Positions 22,868 through 50,814 of a stretch of 56,163 nucleotides of DNA are shown here, one piece after another (positions within the stretch are counted from its first letter, which is position 1; every line of letters begins with the position of its first letter). Made by a program: the position numbers and the translations under genes. This DNA comes from Paracoccaceae bacterium. GTDB lineage: Bacteria > Pseudomonadota > Alphaproteobacteria > Rhodobacterales > Rhodobacteraceae. The notes under the pieces are model-generated. The model had not been told where the DNA came from. It ran no database searches and saw nothing but the letters and a program-made list of their open reading frames with translations. Where the stretch lies: positions 1 to 56,163 of the forward strand of contig JAGWVA010000022.1 of the NCBI GenBank assembly GCA_028875855.1. The letters run 5' to 3'.

Positions 22868-22900
22868 TAAAACACGAAACCCCCCAGGAGACCTGAGGGG
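22868..22900 (-). terminator. rho-independent terminator of antisense RNA copy 1
   Basis: Nine-bp stem (one G-T pair) with a TCT loop at 22880-22900, followed on the minus strand by TTTCGTGTTTT. Confidence 0.6.
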
Positions 22901-22977
22901 CACATGTTCCGGGTTGGGACCCGGCATCCAAAAACGGTGACAAGTTCTGGATGCCACATCTCCCCACCCAACGCAAG
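22870..22977. repeat. repC-leader repeat, copy 1
   Basis: This matches 23300-23408 almost base for base; differences are confined to a short spacer (AAAAACGGTGA versus ATAAAACTCTGA) and one indel. Weaker similarity continues about 25 bases beyond the right edge. Confidence 0.85.
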
Positions 22978-23297: not shown

Positions 23298-23330
23298 ATA
23301 AACACGAAACCCCCCAGGAGACCTGAGGGG
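23298..23330 (-). terminator. rho-independent terminator of antisense RNA copy 2
   Basis: Same hairpin as at 22880-22900, here at 23310-23330, with a T-rich minus-strand tail. Confidence 0.6.
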
Positions 23331-23408
23331 CACATGTTCCGGGTTGGGACCCGGCATCCATAAAACTCTGACAAGTTCTGGATGCCACATCTCCCCACCC
23401 AACGCAAG
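23300..23408. repeat. repC-leader repeat, copy 2
   Basis: Second copy of the 108-bp element, ending 72 bases before the repC start. Its spacer contains AACTCTGACAAGTT, the partner of the complementary sequence at 23094-23107. Confidence 0.85.
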
Positions 23409-23479
23409 CAAAAAACGCCTTTGGGCGAACAGCGCAGTGCACCCTTTCGAGGTCTCCCAAGCCATTGAGGAGACAGGCA

Positions 23480-24757
23480 ATGATGACACTAGAAGGCACC
23501 CCGGCCCGCACGGCACGGCGGCAACCCCATGCAACCGCAGCCGCGCCCCAGACCAAGGCGCGTTACATCCAGACCGTTGTAGCTGCCCTGCGCCTCATGG
23601 GCGCAAATTCGACCCATATCGACGTTTACCGGACCATCACCGAACCGACCGACCACCGCGATTGGGAGGGTGAAGACCCTTGCCCCATCAATTACCGCCT
23701 TCAGGTCGATTTGGCGGAGCAGCACCACATGACGGAGCGACATTGGCGCCGAATAGAGCGTCAGCTTGCGAAGTGGGGTGTGATTGAACGCGCCACAGCC
23801 GACAACGGCTATCGAGGCCGCCATCGGGTTGGCGAGCGCGACATCCGCCTCGGCATCAGCTTGAAGCCGTCTATCGACAACATGCCCTACTTCGAGGGGC
23901 TACTCGCCCAAGATCGGTTCCATAAGGACGAGCGACGGGCGGCTATGTGGACCGCGCGAGCTACACGCAAGCGAGTTCTGAGCAAGATCGCAGAGCTTGA
24001 GCCTGATGTTGCCGCATCATTCCAGCGCCGGATGGACGAGATTGATACCATCTGTCCGCCAGGCAGCAAACGACAGGCCTCCATAGATGTCCTCACGGCT
24101 TTTCGCCTCGCCCTTTGTTCCCTCGAAGAAGCTGTGGATAGTGCGCTTGAACGTAGTGTCGTGACTGATGCTGTGTTCTATGAAATGTCCGCCGCACCGG
24201 ACTCCAATGTCCGGTCCTATATACAACCTACAACTCCACGAAAATCTGTAGACTGTAACGCGCAAGGCACGTTGGAAAGGACGCCCGGCAAGCCGGGCGA
24301 AGCCGGTATTACCGCGTCGCCGCCTAAAGGCGACGACGATTGCTTAGAAAACAAGCATGGCGGGGCAGGCGGCGAGCGCAAGTCCGATCTCCCACAGCAC
24401 CTCACGCTGGATCGCCTGAAATCGACGGCATCCGAGGACTTTGCGATGTACCTCGACGCCTACCCTCACCCAGAAGACGCAACGGCGGCCTATCTCAGGG
24501 AAATAGGCATCAACGTGCGGGCTTGGGAGGACGCGGTAGAGCAGATGGGATGGGCTGACGCCTTCATCAGCCTTGTCGTCATAGATCGGAACAGGTTCCA
24601 CCCGACCTCCCCGGTCATATCCCCCGGTGGCACCCTGCGGCGGTTCACAGAACTCCATCGCAAAGGTCGGCTGTCGCTCGTCCGGTCGCTCATAGGCATC
24701 TGGGAACGCGATCGCATGGGCACTCAGCCTCGCACCGCTGGCCTCAAGCCCAACTGA
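23480..24757 (+). CDS. repC: RepC-like plasmid replication initiator
   Basis: The 425-residue protein has a winged-helix N-terminal part (YRLQVDLAEQHHMTERHWRR, then LAKWGVIERATADNGYRGR) that resembles the DNA-binding region of RepC. The C-terminal domain contains SPGGTLRRFTELHRKGRLSL, like the 'SPGGYLR' block of RepC. A Pro/Gly-rich linker lies between. ATG 23480 follows GGAGACAGGCA. RepA and RepB partition genes are absent, so this is a stand-alone repC. RepC proteins often act at an origin inside their own gene; the AT-richer stretch around 24170-24260 would be the place to look. The family call is by pattern only. Confidence 0.65.
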   Translation: MMTLEGTPARTARRQPHATAAAPQTKARYIQTVVAALRLMGANSTHIDVYRTITEPTDHRDWEGEDPCPINYRLQVDLAEQHHMTERHWRRIERQLAKWGVIERATADNGYRGRHRVGERDIRLGISLKPSIDNMPYFEGLLAQDRFHKDERRAAMWTARATRKRVLSKIAELEPDVAASFQRRMDEIDTICPPGSKRQASIDVLTAFRLALCSLEEAVDSALERSVVTDAVFYEMSAAPDSNVRSYIQPTTPRKSVDCNAQGTLERTPGKPGEAGITASPPKGDDDCLENKHGGAGGERKSDLPQHLTLDRLKSTASEDFAMYLDAYPHPEDATAAYLREIGINVRAWEDAVEQMGWADAFISLVVIDRNRFHPTSPVISPGGTLRRFTELHRKGRLSLVRSLIGIWERDRMGTQPRTAGLKPN

Positions 24758-42640: not shown

Positions 42641-43032
42641 AATGCGTCCCGCGCGAAGGGCGCGCGGAACCCGAGGGGATTTGTCGGCGCGCCGCCAAAC
42701 GCCCTCGATCGACATCGCCGGGCGAGCAGGCCCGCCCGACACCTATCCTGTCTTTTTCAATCCGCCTGGCACGGAACCTGTCGGCATCAATGGGCAAGCG
42801 CCGCCGCGATGCGTCGTCGTCGGGGGGCCGGCCCGTGTCCTCGCCCTGTGGGCTGCGGGCCGCGCCAGCCGTCCCCCCGACCCATTGACGCCGCCAGAAC
42901 CCGTCGCGGCGAGGGCTGTGCCCTCCCCGCTCTGCCGTTCCGAAATGCATGGAGCATTTCGACGGTCAGACCGTGGAGGCTCCGCCCACTGCGGATGCTG
43001 GCATCAAGACCAGACCGCGCGCCACGAAAGGA
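42641..43032 (+). repeat. leading-region repeat A, copy 1 (392 bp)
   Basis: This is about 93-95% identical by eye to 47161-47551 and, like it, ends immediately before a gene start. It is GC-rich and hairpin-rich; the first hairpin is CCGCGCG-aaggg-CGCGCGG at 42649-42667. A plus-strand frame is open through it, but it leads into a different frame from the gene in this copy, so the repeat itself is not coding. Confidence 0.85.
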
Positions 43033-43038
43033 CAAGCC

Positions 43039-43359
43039 GTGATCTACACGAGCCAATTGCACTCCGGGGACTACTACGTCCAGACCACCACCAACGCGCC
43101 GAACCGCGAAGTTTACGCCGTCGCCGCTTTGCCTGTGCACATGTTCGCCAATCTCGCAGACGCCAAGCAGGCCGCCCGGTTTGCCGCCGAATGGGCCGAG
43201 CGGAACCGCTGGACCATCACCGCCACCGACCGCGTGACCGGCGAGAGGGTTGCCCTGTTCACTTGGACCCAATGCCCCCGCGACGGCATGACCCGCGCCA
43301 TGATCGACGCCCGCGAGGCAGGCCGCGACCTTTACGACTACCGCGCAATTCCCGCCTGA
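43039..43359 (+). CDS. leading-region hypothetical protein
   Basis: The 106-residue protein begins at GTG 43039 (VIYTSQLHSGDYYVQTTT), 7 bases after repeat A1. It is soluble, mixed alpha/beta, with an acidic-basic centre (RFAAEWAERNRWTITATD). No family is recognised. The in-frame ATG at 42949 lies inside the repeat and is not conserved in frame with copy 2. It belongs to a run of closely spaced plus-strand genes. Confidence 0.55.
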   Translation: MIYTSQLHSGDYYVQTTTNAPNREVYAVAALPVHMFANLADAKQAARFAAEWAERNRWTITATDRVTGERVALFTWTQCPRDGMTRAMIDAREAGRDLYDYRAIPA

Positions 43360-43367
43360 CAGGAGCG

Positions 43368-43712
43368 ATGAAAATGCCCACCCCCATGACCCCGCGCAGC
43401 TTCACCGTTCCCGCCTACATGCCGCATTTGCCGCGAGAGGAAGTGCGCGGCTACGCCATCGGCCCCTTCGGTATCTACAAGTATGGCCGCCCCGGTCACG
43501 CCGTCTGGACCATCGTGCTCTTTTCAAGCGGCAACCACCTCTATCGCAAGCTCGATTGCCGGACGCGCGCCCAGGCCCGCGCCAAGGTGGAGCGGCTTAT
43601 CGCGCTTGGCGTGGACTGGACGAAAGACGACCTGTCCAAGATTGCCGGATCGACCGAGGCCGCCCTTACAAACCTACTGGCCGACATTCGCGCCATTGCG
43701 GAGGCGGAATGA
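43368..43712 (+). CDS. leading-region hypothetical protein
   Basis: The 114-residue protein has ATG 43368 just after AGGAGCG. It contains a small beta-rich domain (GYAIGPFGIYKYGRPGHAVW) and a helical C-terminus (AQARAKVERLIALGVDWT). The stop overlaps the next start (ATGA), so genes are coupled. No family is recognised. Confidence 0.55.
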   Translation: MKMPTPMTPRSFTVPAYMPHLPREEVRGYAIGPFGIYKYGRPGHAVWTIVLFSSGNHLYRKLDCRTRAQARAKVERLIALGVDWTKDDLSKIAGSTEAALTNLLADIRAIAEAE

Positions 43713-44218
43713 TGCACACGGCCCACCAGCTTCGCACCATGCCCCACGCCGACCTTTGCGCCCTTGCCAATCTGGCGAAAGGCCCCGTTGCCAGCGGACA
43801 CGCCACTTTCGACAAGGCCGCCAACCATCGGGTGCACGGATATGTCGGCACCGGCAATGTCGAGTCGAACGTCCAAGCCTCAGCCTTCATCCGGCCTTGG
43901 GCCGAAACCGAGTGCAACGGCCACAGCTTCCCGCCCGGCCACTTGCACGACACCGACATTGCCCGGTTTGCCCACCTCCTCAGCAGCGCCGACCGCGCCA
44001 AGATCGACGCCCTGACCCGCGACCGACCGGCCATCGCCTATGTGTTTTTCCACTACGTTGGACGCCGCCGCGTGACGCACGGCTGGATTGTTACCGACGC
44101 TTACTACCGCTTCATCGCCCACCGCGTCACCGGCCCGACCGTCAAGAGCCAAGCCGTGCTGGACGACATGCGCCGCCGCATATCGTGGACCGACACCGGC
44201 CCCCGGCTTCTCAACTGA
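43709..44218 (+). CDS. leading-region hypothetical protein
   Basis: The 169-residue soluble protein starts at MMHTAHQLRTMPHADLCALA. It is His-rich with a predicted alpha/beta fold; the conserved-looking core is RPAIAYVFFHYVGRRRVTHG. It has no known motif and no signal peptide. It is coupled to the preceding gene. Confidence 0.55.
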   Translation: MMHTAHQLRTMPHADLCALANLAKGPVASGHATFDKAANHRVHGYVGTGNVESNVQASAFIRPWAETECNGHSFPPGHLHDTDIARFAHLLSSADRAKIDALTRDRPAIAYVFFHYVGRRRVTHGWIVTDAYYRFIAHRVTGPTVKSQAVLDDMRRRISWTDTGPRLLN

Positions 44219-44270
44219 ACACCTCGGCCGGGTACGTCCCGGCCCCTCCCCCATGCCAAGGAGCGACGCC

Positions 44271-44666
44271 ATGTCCCCGACCCCCGAAGAAGCCCTTAAC
44301 TACCCGATCACCGAGCGCACCCGTTTTCGTGTGCGGCTTGATCTGTCCCACAGCCGCGTGCCGTTGCCCGTCGAGCTGACACCCGGCCCGTTCTGGCTCA
44401 GGCACTTTACAAGCTTTGAGGCCTGCCAACGCGCGTGGGTTGCCTTCCGCAGCCTTTACGATCTGGGGATGTCGCAATGCTGTGGCGGCGAGATCTTCGA
44501 CGAGCAAGGCCAGCACATCGCGCAAGTCAGCTACAACGGCCGACTGTGGCCGCCTGGCGAATGGCAGCCGAGCAAAACGCACGCCGCCGAAGCCCCCACC
44601 ATCAGCGAAGAGGATCTTCGCACCATTGCCGACATCACCGGCCAAACCCTTGTCGCGGAGCACTGA
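44271..44666 (+). CDS. leading-region hypothetical protein
   Basis: The 131-residue protein has ATG 44271 after AAGGAGCGACGCC; ATG 44253 is an alternative. It contains a Cys pair (SQCCGGEIFDE) and a hydrophobic core around FWLRHFTSFEACQRAWVAF. No family is recognised. It precedes the methyltransferase gene by one base. Confidence 0.5.
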   Translation: MSPTPEEALNYPITERTRFRVRLDLSHSRVPLPVELTPGPFWLRHFTSFEACQRAWVAFRSLYDLGMSQCCGGEIFDEQGQHIAQVSYNGRLWPPGEWQPSKTHAAEAPTISEEDLRTIADITGQTLVAEH

Positions 44667-44667
44667 T

Positions 44668-46113
44668 ATGTCGCGTGTCGAGACCTTCACCGCCAACACT
44701 TCGGCCTCGGCCCTTGTGCCCCAATTCGGCCTTCAGACGATCGCCGACGCCCGAGCCGCAGCCCTCGCGCGAATGACCGAGGCGGCCGCCGCGCTCGCGG
44801 GCGCTTTCTCCCTCACCCAAGCCGCGGCCAACATCGCCAAAACCGCCCACGGCGGCCATGCCGCCTATCGCGACAGCCGCCGTGAAACGACCCACATTGA
44901 GAACCTGTTCGGCGCCCACTTCGATGCCGACGCCTCGCTTGCCGCATGGCGCACCCAGCTTGATGCGGGCATCTGGACCCGCCTCTTGCACGAGACGCGC
45001 CTTCACTCCGTGATGGACCGCACCGAGCGCGATACCTTTGAGGCCGCTTTGCGCGGCGATGTCCCGGAGGCCACGCTTGAGAATATGGTAGCCACCCTCT
45101 CACGCTTGACCGGCGACGCCGACCTCATGTTCAAACGCGGCCTCGCCCGCTGCTTTTCCGATCTCGACCGACGGTTCAAAAGCCACGATGCCTTCAAGAT
45201 CGGCAGCCGGATCATCCTGACCCGCGTGTTCGATGAATGGGGCTACTGGCATTGTCGCTCCTATTCTTCGACCGTGGCCGACATCGAGCGCGTCTTTGCG
45301 ATCCTTGACGGCAAAGCCCCAAACCCCGGCGCTTTGGAAGCGGCTATCCGCCACGCCCGCGGCGGCGCCCATGGCGCGCGGCAAAGCGAGGTCGAAACCG
45401 AATATTTCACGGCGCGGGCGTTCAAAAATGGCAACCTTCACCTCTGGTTTTCCCGCCCTGAGCTTGTGACCAAGGCCAACCTCGTCCTTGCCGACTATTA
45501 CGGCGCCGCCGTCGCGGACGCCGCCACCGAGGACGACACCCCCGACATTATCCGCAAGCGGAGCCAGGTCCCGGCCAAGGATCTCGCCTTCTATCCGACG
45601 CCGGCCGCCGTGGTGGACGAGCTGCTGCGCAGCCTCCACCTGAAACCCGGCATGCGCGTCCTGGAGCCCTCAGCCGGCATCGGCAATATCGTCCGGCCTC
45701 TCCTCGCCAAAGGCTGTATCGTCGAGGCCATCGAAATCCACCCCGACCGTGCGCGGGCACTGGAAAGCATCGCGCATCCCAACTTGACGGTGCGGCTCGC
45801 CAACTTCCTGAAGGTCGAGGCGCATCCGGTCTTTGATGCCGTCCTTGCCAATCCGCCCTTTGCCGGCACCCACTGGATCGCGCACGTCGTCCATGCCTGG
45901 AACTTCGTGGCGCCCGGCGGAAAGCTCAGCGTGATCCTTCCGGCTTCGGCCGAGGTCAACGAAACCCCCCGGCACATCGAGTTTCGCCAATGGGCCGAAC
46001 GGGTCGATGCTGCCCGCTATGGCCGCCGCTGGACCGCGCTGCCGGCCGAGAGCTTCGCATCGGTCGGAACCAACATCCAAACCGTGATCCTGACCTTGCA
46101 CAAGGCCAGCTAG
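44668..46113 (+). CDS. N6-adenine DNA methyltransferase with DUF4942-type N-terminal domain
   Basis: The 481-residue protein has an N-terminal two-thirds matching the DUF4942 pattern (FTARAFKNGNLHLWFSRPEL near 250). A Rossmann methylase domain follows, with SAM motif I (VLEPSAGIGNIV, about 331) and catalytic NPPF (VLANPPFAGTHW, about 394). No restriction partner is adjacent, so it is probably an orphan methylase that protects incoming plasmid DNA from host restriction. It is followed by repeat B1 and a terminator. Confidence 0.75.
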   Translation: MSRVETFTANTSASALVPQFGLQTIADARAAALARMTEAAAALAGAFSLTQAAANIAKTAHGGHAAYRDSRRETTHIENLFGAHFDADASLAAWRTQLDAGIWTRLLHETRLHSVMDRTERDTFEAALRGDVPEATLENMVATLSRLTGDADLMFKRGLARCFSDLDRRFKSHDAFKIGSRIILTRVFDEWGYWHCRSYSSTVADIERVFAILDGKAPNPGALEAAIRHARGGAHGARQSEVETEYFTARAFKNGNLHLWFSRPELVTKANLVLADYYGAAVADAATEDDTPDIIRKRSQVPAKDLAFYPTPAAVVDELLRSLHLKPGMRVLEPSAGIGNIVRPLLAKGCIVEAIEIHPDRARALESIAHPNLTVRLANFLKVEAHPVFDAVLANPPFAGTHWIAHVVHAWNFVAPGGKLSVILPASAEVNETPRHIEFRQWAERVDAARYGRRWTALPAESFASVGTNIQTVILTLHKAS

Positions 46114-46120
46114 CTTAACC

Positions 46121-46264
46121 TTCGTGGCTGAAGGACCTGGCCCCGCTTCGGCGGGGTCTTCTTTTGTCGTGTTCCTTGGGGGCTGGCCCGCGTTTGTCCG
46201 GGACGCGCGGCGCAGCTCGCGCCGCACCCCGCCCCCCGGACCGGCGCTATCCGCGCAGGAGCCG
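46121..46264 (+). repeat. leading-region repeat B, copy 1
   Basis: This shares with 50161-50303 a start (TTCGTGGCTGAAGGA), a CCCCGCTTCGGCGGGG hairpin, a large hairpin, and a 23-base end beginning CGGCGCTATCC. The large hairpin here has outer arms GTCCGGG/CCCGGAC (46196-46202 with 46235-46241) and inner arms GCGGCGC/GCGCCGC (46207-46225). It lies right after the methyltransferase gene. Confidence 0.7.
46141..46165 (+). terminator. terminator after the methyltransferase gene
   Basis: CCCCGC-TTCG-GCGGGG followed by TCTTCTTTT: a textbook rho-independent hairpin with the stable TTCG loop. It is part of repeat B1. Confidence 0.8.
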
Positions 46265-46312
46265 CAAAAGCGGCAGCAGGAAATTGCGCCCGCCTGTTAA
46301 CCCGCCCCGCGC

Positions 46313-46813
46313 CTACCGGCGCGGAGCGCGGGCGGGCAAGCCGACACCCCGTTTCTTCCTGCGCTCGATCCCAGGCCCCGCGATCCGAAGAACCGGATAG
46401 CTCAGGATCTCGTCAAGCGCCTCCGGGATCGACAGATCAAACGTGTCGCGCACGTCCACCGGAATAGTCTCGTGGCACACGCCAGACGCCTCGATCAGGC
46501 CCATGAGATATTTCACAGCCTCGGCAGCCGTCCCCATCCCGTGATCCGCCAACAGAAGTCGATCGAGCAGCACGATCCGGTGCGACCAGCGCAGGTAGAA
46601 GCCTTGCGTCGTCGGCCAGACGTTATTGCCTCGCCCCGCCCGTTCGTTCCGGGTCCGAAACGTGATCACCTCGATGACTTCCGCCAGTCCATTCAAATGA
46701 AAGGCGGCTATCTCCTTCGATTTCTGAAGATCGTCGCAATAGGGACGCTCAACTCTTATGCCGAACCAATTCGCAGCCTGGTCCTCGGTGGTCGGGAGAA
46801 ATTTCGAGCCCAT
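46313..46813 (-). CDS. hypothetical protein on the opposite strand of the leading region
   Basis: The 166-residue soluble protein has ATG 46813 following GAGGACT. There is no signal peptide; it is mixed alpha/beta with a Leu-rich middle (HRIVLLDRLLLADHGMG) and a basic tail. It is the only minus-strand gene in this block, converging on the methyltransferase. No family is recognised. Confidence 0.5.
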   Translation of the reverse strand: MGSKFLPTTEDQAANWFGIRVERPYCDDLQKSKEIAAFHLNGLAEVIEVITFRTRNERAGRGNNVWPTTQGFYLRWSHRIVLLDRLLLADHGMGTAAEAVKYLMGLIEASGVCHETIPVDVRDTFDLSIPEALDEILSYPVLRIAGPGIERRKKRGVGLPARAPRR

Positions 46814-47160
46814 GACAAGTCCTCATACTACTGGCAATCGGTGATGTGGTCTTAGCTTTAGGCGGTGTCTCTGCAAGATCAGCATCGGTCAAGGCTGACG
46901 TGGAGGAACACGCCGGGCGACTGCCCCCCTCCGGGCGGCACCGCGCTCCGAGGCTAAGGCCCCGAGCTTCCGGCCCGCGCTCTCCCTGCCGCCAAAGAGC
47001 GCGCGCCATCGTCTCTTCCAGAGCCGCTGGCGCGCGCGGCGGCATGGTCAGCGCAAACCTCCATCTCGGCCCGTGCCGGGTCTGGATCGCTGTCGCAGCA
47101 AACGACCTCGGCCGAGATCAGGTCGGAACCGTCAATCAGGTGTTCGCGGTGGGATAGTCG
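46814..47160. other. intergenic region before repeat A2
   Basis: About 350 bases. It shares no evident similarity with the sequence before repeat A1. It is GC-rich with several short hairpins, and I see no gene or clear promoter. Confidence 0.35.
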
Positions 47161-47551
47161 AATGCGTCCCGCGCGAAGCGCGCGCGGAACCCGAGGGGAT
47201 TTGTCGGCACGCCGCCAAACGCCCTCGATCGACATCGCCGGTCGGGTTAGCCCGCCCGACACCTATCCTGTCTTTTTCAATCCGCCTGGCACGGAACCTG
47301 TCGGCATCAATGGGCAAGCGCCGCCGCGATGCGTCGTCGTCAGGGGACCGGCCCGTGTCCTCGCCTTTCAGGCTGCGGGCCGCGCCAGCCGGCCCCCTGA
47401 CCCATTGACGCCGCCAGAACCCGTCGCGGCGAGGGCTTTGCCCTCCCCGCTCTGCCCTTCCGAAATGCATGGGCATTTCGACGGTCAGACCGTGGAGGCT
47501 CAGCCCACTGCGGATGCTGGCATCAAGACCAGACCGCGCGCCACGAAAGGA
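47161..47551 (+). repeat. leading-region repeat A, copy 2 (391 bp)
   Basis: Partner of 42641-43032. It ends 6 bases before the DUF3768 gene. The first hairpin keeps its arms (CCGCGCG/CGCGCGG, 47169-47187) although the loop has changed. The second hairpin, near base 90 of the repeat, has different 5' arms in the two copies (GTCGGG here, CGGGCG in copy 1), yet both pair with the unchanged 3' side. Confidence 0.85.
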
Positions 47552-47557
47552 AAGACA

Positions 47558-47944
47558 ATGCTTGATACTCGTTTCCCCGATGAGCGGACCGGCAAGATCG
47601 CCGCCCAAAATGACGCCTTCCGCAAGGCGTTGAGCGTCACCGAATGCGACGGCCAGAAGATCGACGGCACCGCCGTCCTGACCCGGACCGTGATGGCGAT
47701 GGGTGCGCAGTTCATCGCAGACGTCACCCGCGCCGTGCGGGACTTCGCCACCTTCACCGACGACAACGATCCGCTCGCAGAACATGACTTCGGCGTGGTC
47801 GAGGTCTGCCACGCGGGCCTGCGTCAGCGCGCCTATTGGAAGATCGACCTTTACGACGAGGACTACGTGTTCGGGTCGCCCTGCCCCGAAGACCCGGCCC
47901 AGACCCGCCGCGTCCTCACGATCATGCTGCCCGAAGATTACTGA
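47558..47944 (+). CDS. DUF3768 family protein
   Basis: The 128-residue protein fits the DUF3768 pattern: KIAAQNDAFRKAL at the start, FATFTDDNDPLAEHDFGVVE in the middle, YWKIDLYDEDYVFGSPCPED and a terminal RVLTIMLPEDY. Such proteins are common on alphaproteobacterial plasmids; their function is unknown. ATG 47558 follows AAAGGAAAGACA. The frame is open through repeat A2, but the protein-like part starts here. Confidence 0.8.
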   Translation: MLDTRFPDERTGKIAAQNDAFRKALSVTECDGQKIDGTAVLTRTVMAMGAQFIADVTRAVRDFATFTDDNDPLAEHDFGVVEVCHAGLRQRAYWKIDLYDEDYVFGSPCPEDPAQTRRVLTIMLPEDY

Positions 47945-48209: not shown

Positions 48210-50087
48210 ATGACGAAGCACGAAACCCTGGCCTACGTGGCCGCCCCGACCGCCGAAGTGATCACCGCCCCGCTGGCCGATCTCTACCTCTCGCCCATCA
48301 ACCCCCGCCAAGAGGCCGACCCCGAAGGCATCGCCCTTCTGGTGCAAAGCATCCTTGCCTGTGGCCTGATCCAGAACCTTTCGGGCCTGCGGGACGAAGA
48401 CGGCAGGATTGCCATCGTCGCGGGCGGGCGGCGCTTGCGCGCCCTGACCCTCGCCGCCGAGCAGAACCCGGCCCTCTCCATGGTCCCCGTGCGCCTCGCC
48501 CCCGATGCGCTGACCGCCCAAGCATGGGCCAACGCCGAGAACAGCGCGCGCGAAGCGCTGGCCCCGGCGCAGGAAATCCGCGCCTACGGCAAGATGCGGG
48601 ACAGCGGCGCACCGGTCACCTCCATCGCCCGCGCCTTCGCCGTCACCGAAAAGCATGTCTATCGCCGTCTCGCGCTGGCGGACCTGCCCGCCCCGGTGAT
48701 CGACGCCCTCGCCGCTGGTCAAATCTCGCTTGGTCAAGCCGCTGCCTTCACCGTCGCGACCGACGAAGACCTTGCGCTGCAAGTGCTCGAAGCCGTGATC
48801 GGGCGCGACTATTCGGAAGCGTGGATCAAGGGCCAGTTGCAGCCGCAGGCCGTGCGCTCGACCGACCGGCGCGCCGTCTTCGTCGGGCTGGACACCTACA
48901 AGGCGGCTGGTGGCTCCATCAGCACCGACCTCTTTGCCGATGTCGCCTACCTGCAAAGCCCGGACCTTCTCGACCGGCTCTTTGCCGAGAAGTTGGAGGA
49001 TACCGCCGCCCAGATCGCAGCCGAACAGGGCTGGAAATGGGTGGACGCGCTCGAAGGCGAATATGTGCCGTGGGACTACACCGAGAGCCACAAGCTCGCT
49101 CGCCTCTACCCGGTATCCAACGACCTGACCGAGGAAGAAGCCCTCGAATGGGATGAACTCTCGGAATTGGAGGCCGAGGAAATGCTGGACGAGGCCGGGA
49201 TCGAGCGCCTTGCCGCCCTCGATGCCAAACAGGCGTCTTATTTCACCGAGGACCAAAAGGCGCTTTCCGGCTGCCTTCTGACCGTCGAGCGGAACGGCAC
49301 GATCCGCCTGACCGAAGGCATGGTGAAGCCCGAGGACGCCGCCGAAGCCGTCGCCGCTGGCCTGATGCAGGCCAACCGCCACGCAACCGGGGAAGCCGCT
49401 GGCAGCGGTGCGCCGAAGTCGCCCTATAGCCAAGCGCTGGTCACGGACATGAAGGCCCTGCGGCTCGCAGCCGTCCAAGGTGCCCTTCTTGCCAAGCCCG
49501 AATTGGTGCTCGACCTTCTGGCCTATGCGCTCTCCCCCGACAGCGGGCGCTACTGTGACGTCTTCGGCATCCGCACGGACCTGCCCAACATCACGCCCAC
49601 CGCCGAGGACGGTTGCGAGATTGATCCGCGCCTGACGGTGGAACCGAGCGGGTCCGACTTCACGATGCCGGAAGACACTGCCGCCAAGTTCCTCGCCTTC
49701 CAAGAGCAGGGCAAGAAGCACCGCAACGCCATGCTTACGGCCTCCATCGCCCGGCTCTTGAACTACGGCGGCAGCGCGAGCGGACGCACGACCAGCCTCT
49801 TTGACCACATCGAGGACGAGGCGAACGCCAACCTCCGCAAGGTCTGGACGCCCACGGCAAGCAACTTCTTCGGGCGCGTGAACGGGCCCTATCTGGACGC
49901 GCTCTTTGCCGACCTTCTCGGAGCCGACACAAGCGACGAGCGGGTGAAGACCTTCGCCAAGGCCAAGAAAAGCGAAAAGGTTGCCGTGATGGAACGTCTG
50001 TTCTCCGATCCGCAGACCCGCGCCCTCTATCAAGTGACGCCCGAGCAGGCCGAGCGGATCGCGGCTTGGCAGCCCGATTGCTTCTGA
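48210..50087 (+). CDS. ParB-like nuclease/DNA-binding domain protein
   Basis: The 625-residue protein has a ParB N-terminal domain (LADLYLSPINPRQEADPEGI; then IVAGGRRLRAL, about residues 23-85), a helix-turn-helix (SIARAFAVTEKHVYRRLALA), and a long acidic C-terminal region with no known fold (EEEALEWDELSELEAEEMLD). No ParA is nearby, so it is probably not a partition protein; related plasmid leading-region proteins are thought to aid establishment. ATG 48210 follows a CAAGGACT site. Confidence 0.75.
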   Translation: MTKHETLAYVAAPTAEVITAPLADLYLSPINPRQEADPEGIALLVQSILACGLIQNLSGLRDEDGRIAIVAGGRRLRALTLAAEQNPALSMVPVRLAPDALTAQAWANAENSAREALAPAQEIRAYGKMRDSGAPVTSIARAFAVTEKHVYRRLALADLPAPVIDALAAGQISLGQAAAFTVATDEDLALQVLEAVIGRDYSEAWIKGQLQPQAVRSTDRRAVFVGLDTYKAAGGSISTDLFADVAYLQSPDLLDRLFAEKLEDTAAQIAAEQGWKWVDALEGEYVPWDYTESHKLARLYPVSNDLTEEEALEWDELSELEAEEMLDEAGIERLAALDAKQASYFTEDQKALSGCLLTVERNGTIRLTEGMVKPEDAAEAVAAGLMQANRHATGEAAGSGAPKSPYSQALVTDMKALRLAAVQGALLAKPELVLDLLAYALSPDSGRYCDVFGIRTDLPNITPTAEDGCEIDPRLTVEPSGSDFTMPEDTAAKFLAFQEQGKKHRNAMLTASIARLLNYGGSASGRTTSLFDHIEDEANANLRKVWTPTASNFFGRVNGPYLDALFADLLGADTSDERVKTFAKAKKSEKVAVMERLFSDPQTRALYQVTPEQAERIAAWQPDCF

Positions 50088-50119: not shown

Positions 50120-50160
50120 CTTGCCGTTAGATGCGCCGTCCCCTGATTTTCTCCCTGACC

Positions 50161-50303
50161 TTCGTGGCTGAAGGAACCTGCCCCGCTTCGGCGGGGCCTT
50201 TTTTGTCAAGGGCAGCAGGAGGACCGGCAAGGATGCCCAGGTCGCGCGGAGCAGCCTGCGCCGCCCCGCGCGACCTGGCCCGGCGCTATCCGCGCAGGAG
50301 CCG
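50161..50303 (+). repeat. leading-region repeat B, copy 2
   Basis: Partner of 46121-46264, with the same start, terminator hairpin and 23-base end. The large hairpin has perfect 13-bp arms (CCAGGTCGCGCGG at 50237-50249 and its complement at 50266-50278), different in sequence from copy 1 but in the same place: structure kept, sequence changed. Confidence 0.7.
50179..50206 (+). terminator. terminator in repeat B2
   Basis: CCCCGC-TTCG-GCGGGG followed by CCTTTTTTG; same hairpin as at 46141. Confidence 0.8.
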
Positions 50304-50814
50304 TGTACACGGCATTCGGCGCGGGCCTGCGGCCCGCAAGGTCTTTCTTCCGTATCCCACCCAGCCCCGCGCATAGGGCCAGCTTTCGCCGCACCCATGC
50401 GTCACGGCACCGCCGCCGTCTTCGCCATCCGGGCTAGGGCCGAGCACCAAGCCGTTCCACGGCATCCAGCCCCACCGCCATTGCACCCTTCGCCAGACCA
50501 CCCGATCGCCCAGGGGCCGGTCGTGCCTTCGTTCAGCGCCACCCGTGTACCAAGCTGCCGCCATCCTAGCCTTTGACCTCATCAGATCTTGCGCCAGCGG
50601 TCGGCCATATCAGGCCCCCCTGTTTCCTCTCGATGCAACCTACGGGCGGGCGGGAACGGACCAGGCATCGCAGCCTCTCGGCAACGATGCCCTTCAAGCA
50701 GAATTTTCCCCTGCCCCGCCAAGGCGGGCCATTCCTCGCGCAGCAAAATTCCGCTTGATCCGCCCCCTTGTTCCCGCCCGTGGCCGGTCTGCATCGGAAA
50801 CAAGGAGACCTGAC
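50304..50814. other. non-coding interval after repeat B2
   Basis: About 510 bases between repeat B2 and the next gene. No frame looks like protein. It is GC-rich with many short inverted segments, ending in a CAAGGAG ribosome site before 50815. A promoter for the next gene should lie here but I cannot place it. Confidence 0.35.

Follow-up and report, generated by a model that had tools for sequence, protein, structure and literature searches.

A conserved hairpin element before leading-type genes of proteobacterial plasmids: a candidate single-strand promoter and priming site

We describe a conserved structural element in a 56,163-nt stretch of Paracoccaceae DNA (contig JAGWVA010000022.1; hereafter the window), where it lies inside a non-coding leader, repeat A, present in front of two gene clusters. 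Its internal loop, CCGTGTCCTCG...CTGCGGGCCGC[AG]CCA, is near-invariant and lies between two stems that vary in sequence while their pairing is maintained. That selection maintains this structure, and that it stands before leading-type genes, is near certain. On balance it is probably a single-strand promoter and priming site of a new class, carried by mobile plasmids and integrative and conjugative elements (ICEs) of Pseudomonadota and similar in kind to the Frpo promoters of plasmid F and to single-strand initiation (ssi) sites. We favour this reading because the stems covary, the element is placed before genes, its spread is wide, a −35-like box keeps its spacing and the orientation fits in most relatives; the action on single-stranded DNA (ssDNA), the strand, the polymerase and the synthesis of RNA are parts of it that we infer.

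The conserved unit within repeat A

The two copies of repeat A, both on the plus strand (42641–43032 and 47161–47551, spaced 4.52 kb apart), are identical at 373 of 392 columns of a pairwise alignment (95%, close to the 94% or so given in a preliminary description of this DNA); one of the 19 differing columns is a 1-nt gap. The pair was also recovered by a separate repeat search of the window. Its borders are sharp, with an identity of 38% in the 100 nt of 5′ flank and 32% in the 100 nt of 3′ flank. The end of each copy is separated by 6 nt from a start codon, GTG 43039 in copy 1 and ATG 47558 in copy 2. The genes behind are unrelated, as had been noted: the first encodes 106 aa without a Pfam match (43039–43359, plus strand), the second a DUF3768 protein (47558–47944, plus strand; Pfam, E 4.4e-28). 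Hairpins had likewise been described as kept despite base changes, and we find two compensated pairs, G42822/C42878 of copy 1 being A47342/T47398 in copy 2 within the main stem, and C42846/G42850 being T47366/A47370 within the inner hairpin. In the hairpin at 42719–42738 the copies differ at five positions of the 5′ part. A coding reading of repeat A was rejected: the frame of copy 2 is open throughout (47162–47944), that of copy 1 only from 42949, and the two copies are out of frame with each other because of the 1-nt gap.

The preliminary description took the whole 392 bp as the promoter or priming unit, and this did not hold, the conserved unit being 60–110 nt long. A BLAST search with copy 1 against plasmid records matched 80 of them, none with at least 80% query cover, and many matches were confined to about 70 nt around 42824–42895. 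Phage sequences gave no match to 42730–42920 at E 1e-5. A covariance model, R1, places the element at 42819–42881 in copy 1 (46.2 bits, E 2e-11), with a 5′ arm (42819–42832), the core with its inner hairpin (42833–42863), GCCA and a 3′ arm (42868–42881), and at 47339–47401 in copy 2 (53.1 bits, E 2e-13), with arms at 47339–47352 and 47388–47401 around a core at 47353–47383. In copy 1 it is enclosed by an outer stem (42771–42904; arms 42771–42794 and 42881–42904, inverted repeat I1, 79% complementary). Inverted repeats and folds give three hairpins upstream (42646–42670, 42672–42707 and the one at 42719–42738), and inverted repeats give two between core and gene (42906–42930 and 42941–42961).

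Covariation, which had been proposed as a check, proved strong. An alignment of nine sequences has the core CCGTGTCCTCG-(hairpin)-CTGCGGGCCGC[AG]CCA flanked by arms of unrelated sequence. Among 75 copies with distinct 5′ arms, taken without any pairing filter, 470 of the 600 cells of an eight-pair outer stem are Watson-Crick, against 274 on average and 305 at most when the 3′ arms were re-dealt 1000 times. In 46 of 47 distinct cases the inner hairpin is closed by two or more Watson-Crick pairs; the search pattern had fixed the first of these. Covariation scores 0.595 over 83 distinct rows aligned by the model, compared with 0.187 ± 0.016 in shuffles (0 of 500 reach it) and at most 0.205 with the partner slid; in the 45 seed rows it is 0.529 compared with 0.206. 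Both the 83-row and the 45-row scores lean towards structure, since rows of this alignment (A3) needed at least four of the eight pairs.

Most loop letters were fixed in the genome pattern scan, so that loop invariance in the copies it returned reflects this choice. Homology led to seven clear copies (L142–L144 and L154–L157) that differ at one to three loop positions, and in five of them the fourth base is changed from T to A or G. Pairing within the loop, proposed by RNAalifold between columns 13–19 and 38–46, was rejected, being broken by the A or G at column 14 in L142, L143, L144, L155 and L157. None of 4227 Rfam families matches the element at gathering score in the window and 18 loci, and none falls on it in E-value searches of part of the window and four small plasmids; the Rfam lines obtained (SorX, radC, chrB-a, tRNA and anti-hemB) all lie off the element.

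Past the core stands a −35-like box. TTGAC starts 20–23 nt beyond the core end in 22 of 45 nonredundant copies, and TTG[AC]C in 25 of 45, while on the opposite side of the core TTGAC is scattered over 4–44 nt. In the window it occupies 42885–42889, 21 nt past the core and within the outer stem, and 47405–47409 at equal spacing. This fixed distance would also be expected of a regulatory site that works as duplex DNA, such as an operator or a cruciform to which a regulator of the plasmid or the host binds beside an ordinary promoter whose −35 box is TTGAC, and the sharing of the element among many genes is regulon-like. A protein reading the duplex would not be expected to keep arms of free sequence complementary, however, and one small plasmid (L010, below) carries the unit without an annotated gene behind it; we regard such a site as highly improbable.

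Carriers and the genes behind the element

Species genomes of bacteria and archaea, scanned with a pattern, gave at least 118 stretches, with Rhodobacterales, Burkholderiales, Rhodocyclaceae, Pseudomonas, Pseudoxanthomonas and others among the matches listed. A family-wide scan found the unit in 30 of 394 genomes, the reversed pattern having no occurrence among the matches listed, and a search with the covariance model recovered it from 12 of 398 genomes spread over Pseudomonadota. The carriers are Rhodobacterales plasmids, ICEs and small plasmids of alpha-, beta- and gammaproteobacteria, with up to four direct copies in one plasmid stretch. Three large plasmid records, from Enterobacteriaceae and Pseudomonas, have the unit before a DUF932 gene within an ICE, which we take from its gene order to be of the Tn4371 type.

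An open reading frame (ORF; at least 60 aa, or at least 20 aa if running off the locus end) opened by ATG with a Shine-Dalgarno-like word lies within 600 nt of 81 of 122 copies, the other 41 having none. The distance from unit to start has a median of 197 nt (10th–90th percentile 120–247), the nearest start is 115–182 nt away in most annotated copies, and in the window core end and start codon are 175–176 nt apart. The preliminary description proposed looking for copies before diverse genes, and such a placement is indeed found: of 82 copies flanked by 700 nt on either side, 59 have a gene start within 400 nt downstream and 33 a divergent one under an equal rule, and for nonredundant copies the figures are 23 of 32 and 7 of 32 (Fisher p 1.3e-4). 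The 49 first proteins scanned (47 from relatives and two from the window) include DUF932 (16), DUF3768 (8), ArdC (7) and ParB (3).

The small carriers are plasmids of 1.9–5.4 kb. The smallest, L010 (1.9 kb), has Rep_1 as its sole annotated gene and a single unit with no annotated gene behind it; the plus-strand ORF that follows is antisense to rep and lacks a Pfam match. Its rep-coding strand, which is the strand displaced in rolling-circle replication, bears the minus version of the unit and the plasmid's only CTTGATA, a word resembling the pC194-type nick word. Taken together with the conjugative setting (see below), this makes the minus version the likely single strand in both. The unit of L010, having no annotated gene behind it, suggests a priming site, so the priming option of the preliminary description gains some ground here. 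The 2953-bp Pseudomonas plasmid L007 carries a RepA with weak helix-turn-helix (HTH) matches, an MliC-type gene and a MobV relaxase ORF that spans the record start (2744–2953 and 1–858) and is absent from the gene table, and L143 carries RepL and MobV genes. In both, the unit is upstream of the MobV gene and in the same direction, as in the large plasmids, with the relaxase gene at least about 340 nt past the unit. L142 has two genes of unknown kind, no annotated plus-strand gene and plus-strand ORFs that are only short or end-open. Given the MobV ORF of L007, only L010, and probably also L142, exemplify a unit without a gene behind it. In L008 and L009, Rep3 plasmids with MOBQ typing, the unit is present as an inverted pair.

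As ssDNA, each window copy folds better than 100 of 100 shuffles on either strand, with z-scores of −3.59 and −3.62 on the plus strand and −5.72 and −6.53 on the minus strand. Under DNA parameters the minus strand folds better in 71 of 74 copies, under RNA parameters in 59 of 74, although these copies share cores and are not independent. The Frpo2 region of F, folded as a control, likewise gave −7.47 on the minus strand and −6.03 on the plus strand. G·U pairs on the plus strand make up 6 of 787 stem cells, and 26 of 823 cells in the 83-row alignment, compared with 12 of 126 in a small sample of six tRNAs from the same loci.

These values bear on the possibility that the element is a structured 5′ leader RNA, exerting riboswitch-like or translational control in an mRNA made from an ordinary promoter. 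Its plus-sense placement ahead of start codons, from which its distance varies rather little, its covarying stems and the relaxase gene that follows it in the MobV plasmids all accord with such a leader. The scarcity of G·U pairs, the poorer folding of the plus strand, the lack of an Rfam match on the element, the inverted pair of the Rep3 plasmids and the antisense ORF behind the unit of L010 do not, and we consider a leader RNA rather unlikely. A pure priming site of the ssi or single-strand origin (sso) kind, at which a host primase or primosome starts the complementary strand and no gene is read from ssDNA, would account for the presence of the unit in small plasmids with Rep_1, Rep3, RepL/MobV and RepA/MobV genes; the inverted pairs of the Rep3 plasmids, moreover, resemble ssiA and ssiB of RSF1010, one on each strand. 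Priming alone leaves the gene starts in the same direction and the −35-like box at fixed spacing unexplained, and seems quite improbable as the whole account.

Orientation and a possible mechanism

In the Rhodobacterales plasmids examined the relaxase gene and mobC point away from a gap that is followed by parA/virC genes, and the genes beyond it (ArdC, DUF4942, DUF3560, DUF932, ParB and SSB) mostly point back towards it. Plasmids that have been studied transfer their relaxase gene last. If it is taken as last transferred here too, the incoming strand is the template of the genes headed by the element. On this basis the orientation fits a leading-region ssDNA promoter for 13 of 15 copies in annotated stretches (L135, 2/2; L136, 2/2; L137, 4/4; L138, 1/2; L146, 3/4; the ICE family counted once), where the stretches are partial, L146 covering four of five places, and where the relaxase of L135 is assigned from gene order and MOBP typing. 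It also fits for 8 of 10 copies on contigs with a PF03432 relaxase, only 11 contigs among 43 scan places having one and one of these (G331:C10) being excluded as ambiguous; G257, G013 and G193 share a near-identical first protein and are not independent within the eight. The gap of L136 contains TATATCCTGCC on the strand leading into the element-headed genes, a word resembling what we take to be the MOBP nic consensus, and the gaps of L135, L137 and L138 contain no nic-like word (one of four mobC–virC gaps has one).

A comparable word, CACCTATCCTG at 42740–42750 in repeat A, matches the same presumed consensus and raises the question of whether repeat A could itself be an origin of transfer (oriT). 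The word is absent from seven aligned relatives, which contradicts this, and as many direct copies per plasmid stretch as the unit has would be unstable as oriTs; we give the idea almost no credence.

Several observations weigh against a single-strand promoter. The topology rests on the assumption that the relaxase gene enters last. Four copies face the other way (L138 at 9146, L146 at 22387, L168 at 1379 and L169 at 4268), all of them preceding a gene of about 50 aa near relaxase or virC genes; one thought is that these are sites for the other strand. A stretch like VGWLY.W occurs in three of these four small genes. The window genome has no match to PF03432, TrwC or TraI_2, and its MobA/MobL relaxase lies off the window contig, on C6, which carries two further copies pointing towards it. 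A divergent gene start lies upstream of the 33 of 82 copies given above, a −10 box was searched by eye only and none was seen, and the choice of strand by G·T pairs is weak (6 on the plus and 15 on the minus strand, p 0.08, not significant). The original proposal of an ssDNA promoter or priming site is supported in part: the linkage to genes, the covariation and the orientation of most copies speak for it, and the shorter conserved unit, the −10 box that was not seen, the reversed copies, the unit of L010 with no annotated gene behind it and the relaxase lying off the window contig limit it.

If the element does act as a single-strand promoter and priming site, it might work as follows. The minus strand, the complement of the downstream genes, would become single-stranded in conjugative entry, in rolling-circle replication or by strand separation, and would fold into a long hairpin with the near-invariant internal loop. 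A host factor, most likely the RNA polymerase holoenzyme, could recognise loop and stem, with the −35-like TTGAC placed about two helical turns from the loop, and plus-sense RNA would be initiated at the folded minus strand. In large plasmids and ICEs this RNA would enter the gene behind, so that establishment and anti-defence genes are switched on before the second strand is made. The same RNA might prime the second strand, perhaps as the sole role in some small plasmids.

More tentatively, and short of calling it probable, we propose that the element belongs to an undescribed class of single-strand start sites whose loop is read by a host factor that alpha-, beta- and gammaproteobacteria have in common, serving as a promoter of leading-region genes in conjugative plasmids and ICEs and as a priming site in small rolling-circle, theta and mobilisable plasmids. 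If this is true, a single signal links the establishment of plasmids with their replication. With a searchable model of such a second, unrelated class one could predict the genes first expressed in recipients, for Rhodobacterales plasmids and many Pseudomonas plasmids as well as for Tn4371-type ICEs. The class also poses a biochemical question, namely which factor reads the loop.

Relation to known systems and neighbouring features

The closest functional parallel is with F, for which PMC9849209 gives the positions and ssDNA promoter function of Frpo1 and Frpo2. The Frpo regions of F are direct repeats, with pieces 77–95% alike, 5.39 kb apart, and they end 20–21 nt before ssb and a gene placed by position as ygeA; behind Frpo2 lie ssb and then a ParB-like gene, and behind Frpo1 lie ygeA and then, by position, a DUF932 gene. 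The window pair is alike in being non-coding direct repeats some 5 kb apart that end before unrelated genes. The window copies and Frpo2 also share strong folding as ssDNA, with the template strand folding better, and both systems have DUF932 and ParB-like proteins among their cargo. The genes of F point to oriT, as those behind most copies in the relatives would. Kinship was not detected: comparing by covariance model only, the best score of R1 in 19.5 kb of F is 8.1 bits (E 0.93), and within the two Frpo regions 7.1 bits. The repeat A unit differs from Frpo in having a G+C-rich internal loop in place of recognisable −35 and −10 boxes, and in its range, which takes in small plasmids as well as alpha-, beta- and gammaproteobacteria. 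Most likely the element works like Frpo, and membership of the family is not supported by its sequence.

Other parallels are with priming sites. ssiA and ssiB of RSF1010 (IncQ) share with the element a hairpin with conserved unpaired bases and, in some plasmids, one copy per strand. Priming there uses the plasmid's own primase RepB′. A RepB′ gene is not annotated in L007 or L010, whose Rep proteins match HTH and Rep_1 respectively, although no search with a RepB′ model was made. The single copy in the Rep_1 plasmid L010, oriented as if the displaced strand is read, is reminiscent of an sso, the likeness being to this one plasmid. The sso types that are known come from Gram-positive plasmids, and the repeat A unit differs in that it also heads genes in conjugative plasmids.

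Among motifs listed in PMC2864571 (Weinberg 2010), STAXI adjoins SSB, antirestriction and related genes, with a role in ssDNA considered, and radC is another proteobacterial motif; the element differs from both in that no Rfam model matches it. The ssDNA promoters described in the accessible literature belong to F, ColIb-P9 and their sequence relatives. In RP4 the transcriptome gave early induction of leading genes, for which such promoters were not identified (PMC7314908). A survey of leading regions used five known Frpo/ssi sequences and candidates with a −35/−10 consensus, and the accessible parts of it do not name the element (PMC11541004). No description of the element was found in the accessible parts of the literature, including PMC11541004, PMC4434180, PMC2864571, PMC9849209 and PMC7314908, subscription literature being largely uncovered, and a search by its sequence letters gave only unrelated titles among the matches listed.

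Elsewhere in the window genome, further leaders precede an ArdC-like gene and a small ORF (L014 on contig C6 and L015 on C144), and both contigs break inside a leader, probably as an assembly effect of the repeats. In three Rhodobacterales loci (L017, L028 and L099) the copy has no gene behind it and lies a few hundred nt from a tRNA gene, a tRNA-Arg called by ARAGORN about 300 nt on in L017 and tRNAs judged by eye in the other two; these copies are perhaps the ends of integrated elements.

Within the window, the cluster of copy 1 includes a DUF4942/methyltransferase-like gene (44668–46113, plus strand) and that of copy 2 a ParB-like gene (48210–50087, plus strand). A second repeat pair, 46118–46275 and 50158–50314, is 79–89% alike, has its members 4.04 kb apart and contains a terminator-like hairpin. 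It closes both gene clusters, so that each has leader A in front and, behind, a trailer shared with the other. The first trailer is overlapped at 46087–46164 by a SorX match that is weak (21.7 bits, under the gathering score). Between 8757 and 38826 the minus strand encodes VirD4-type and other secretion genes beside matches to TcpQ, secretin and T2SSE, a set resembling a type IV pilus. Finally, near-identical direct repeats at 22870–22977 and 23300–23408, about 430 bp apart, lie just before a RepC-like gene (23465–24757) and are possibly part of a replication origin or of its control.

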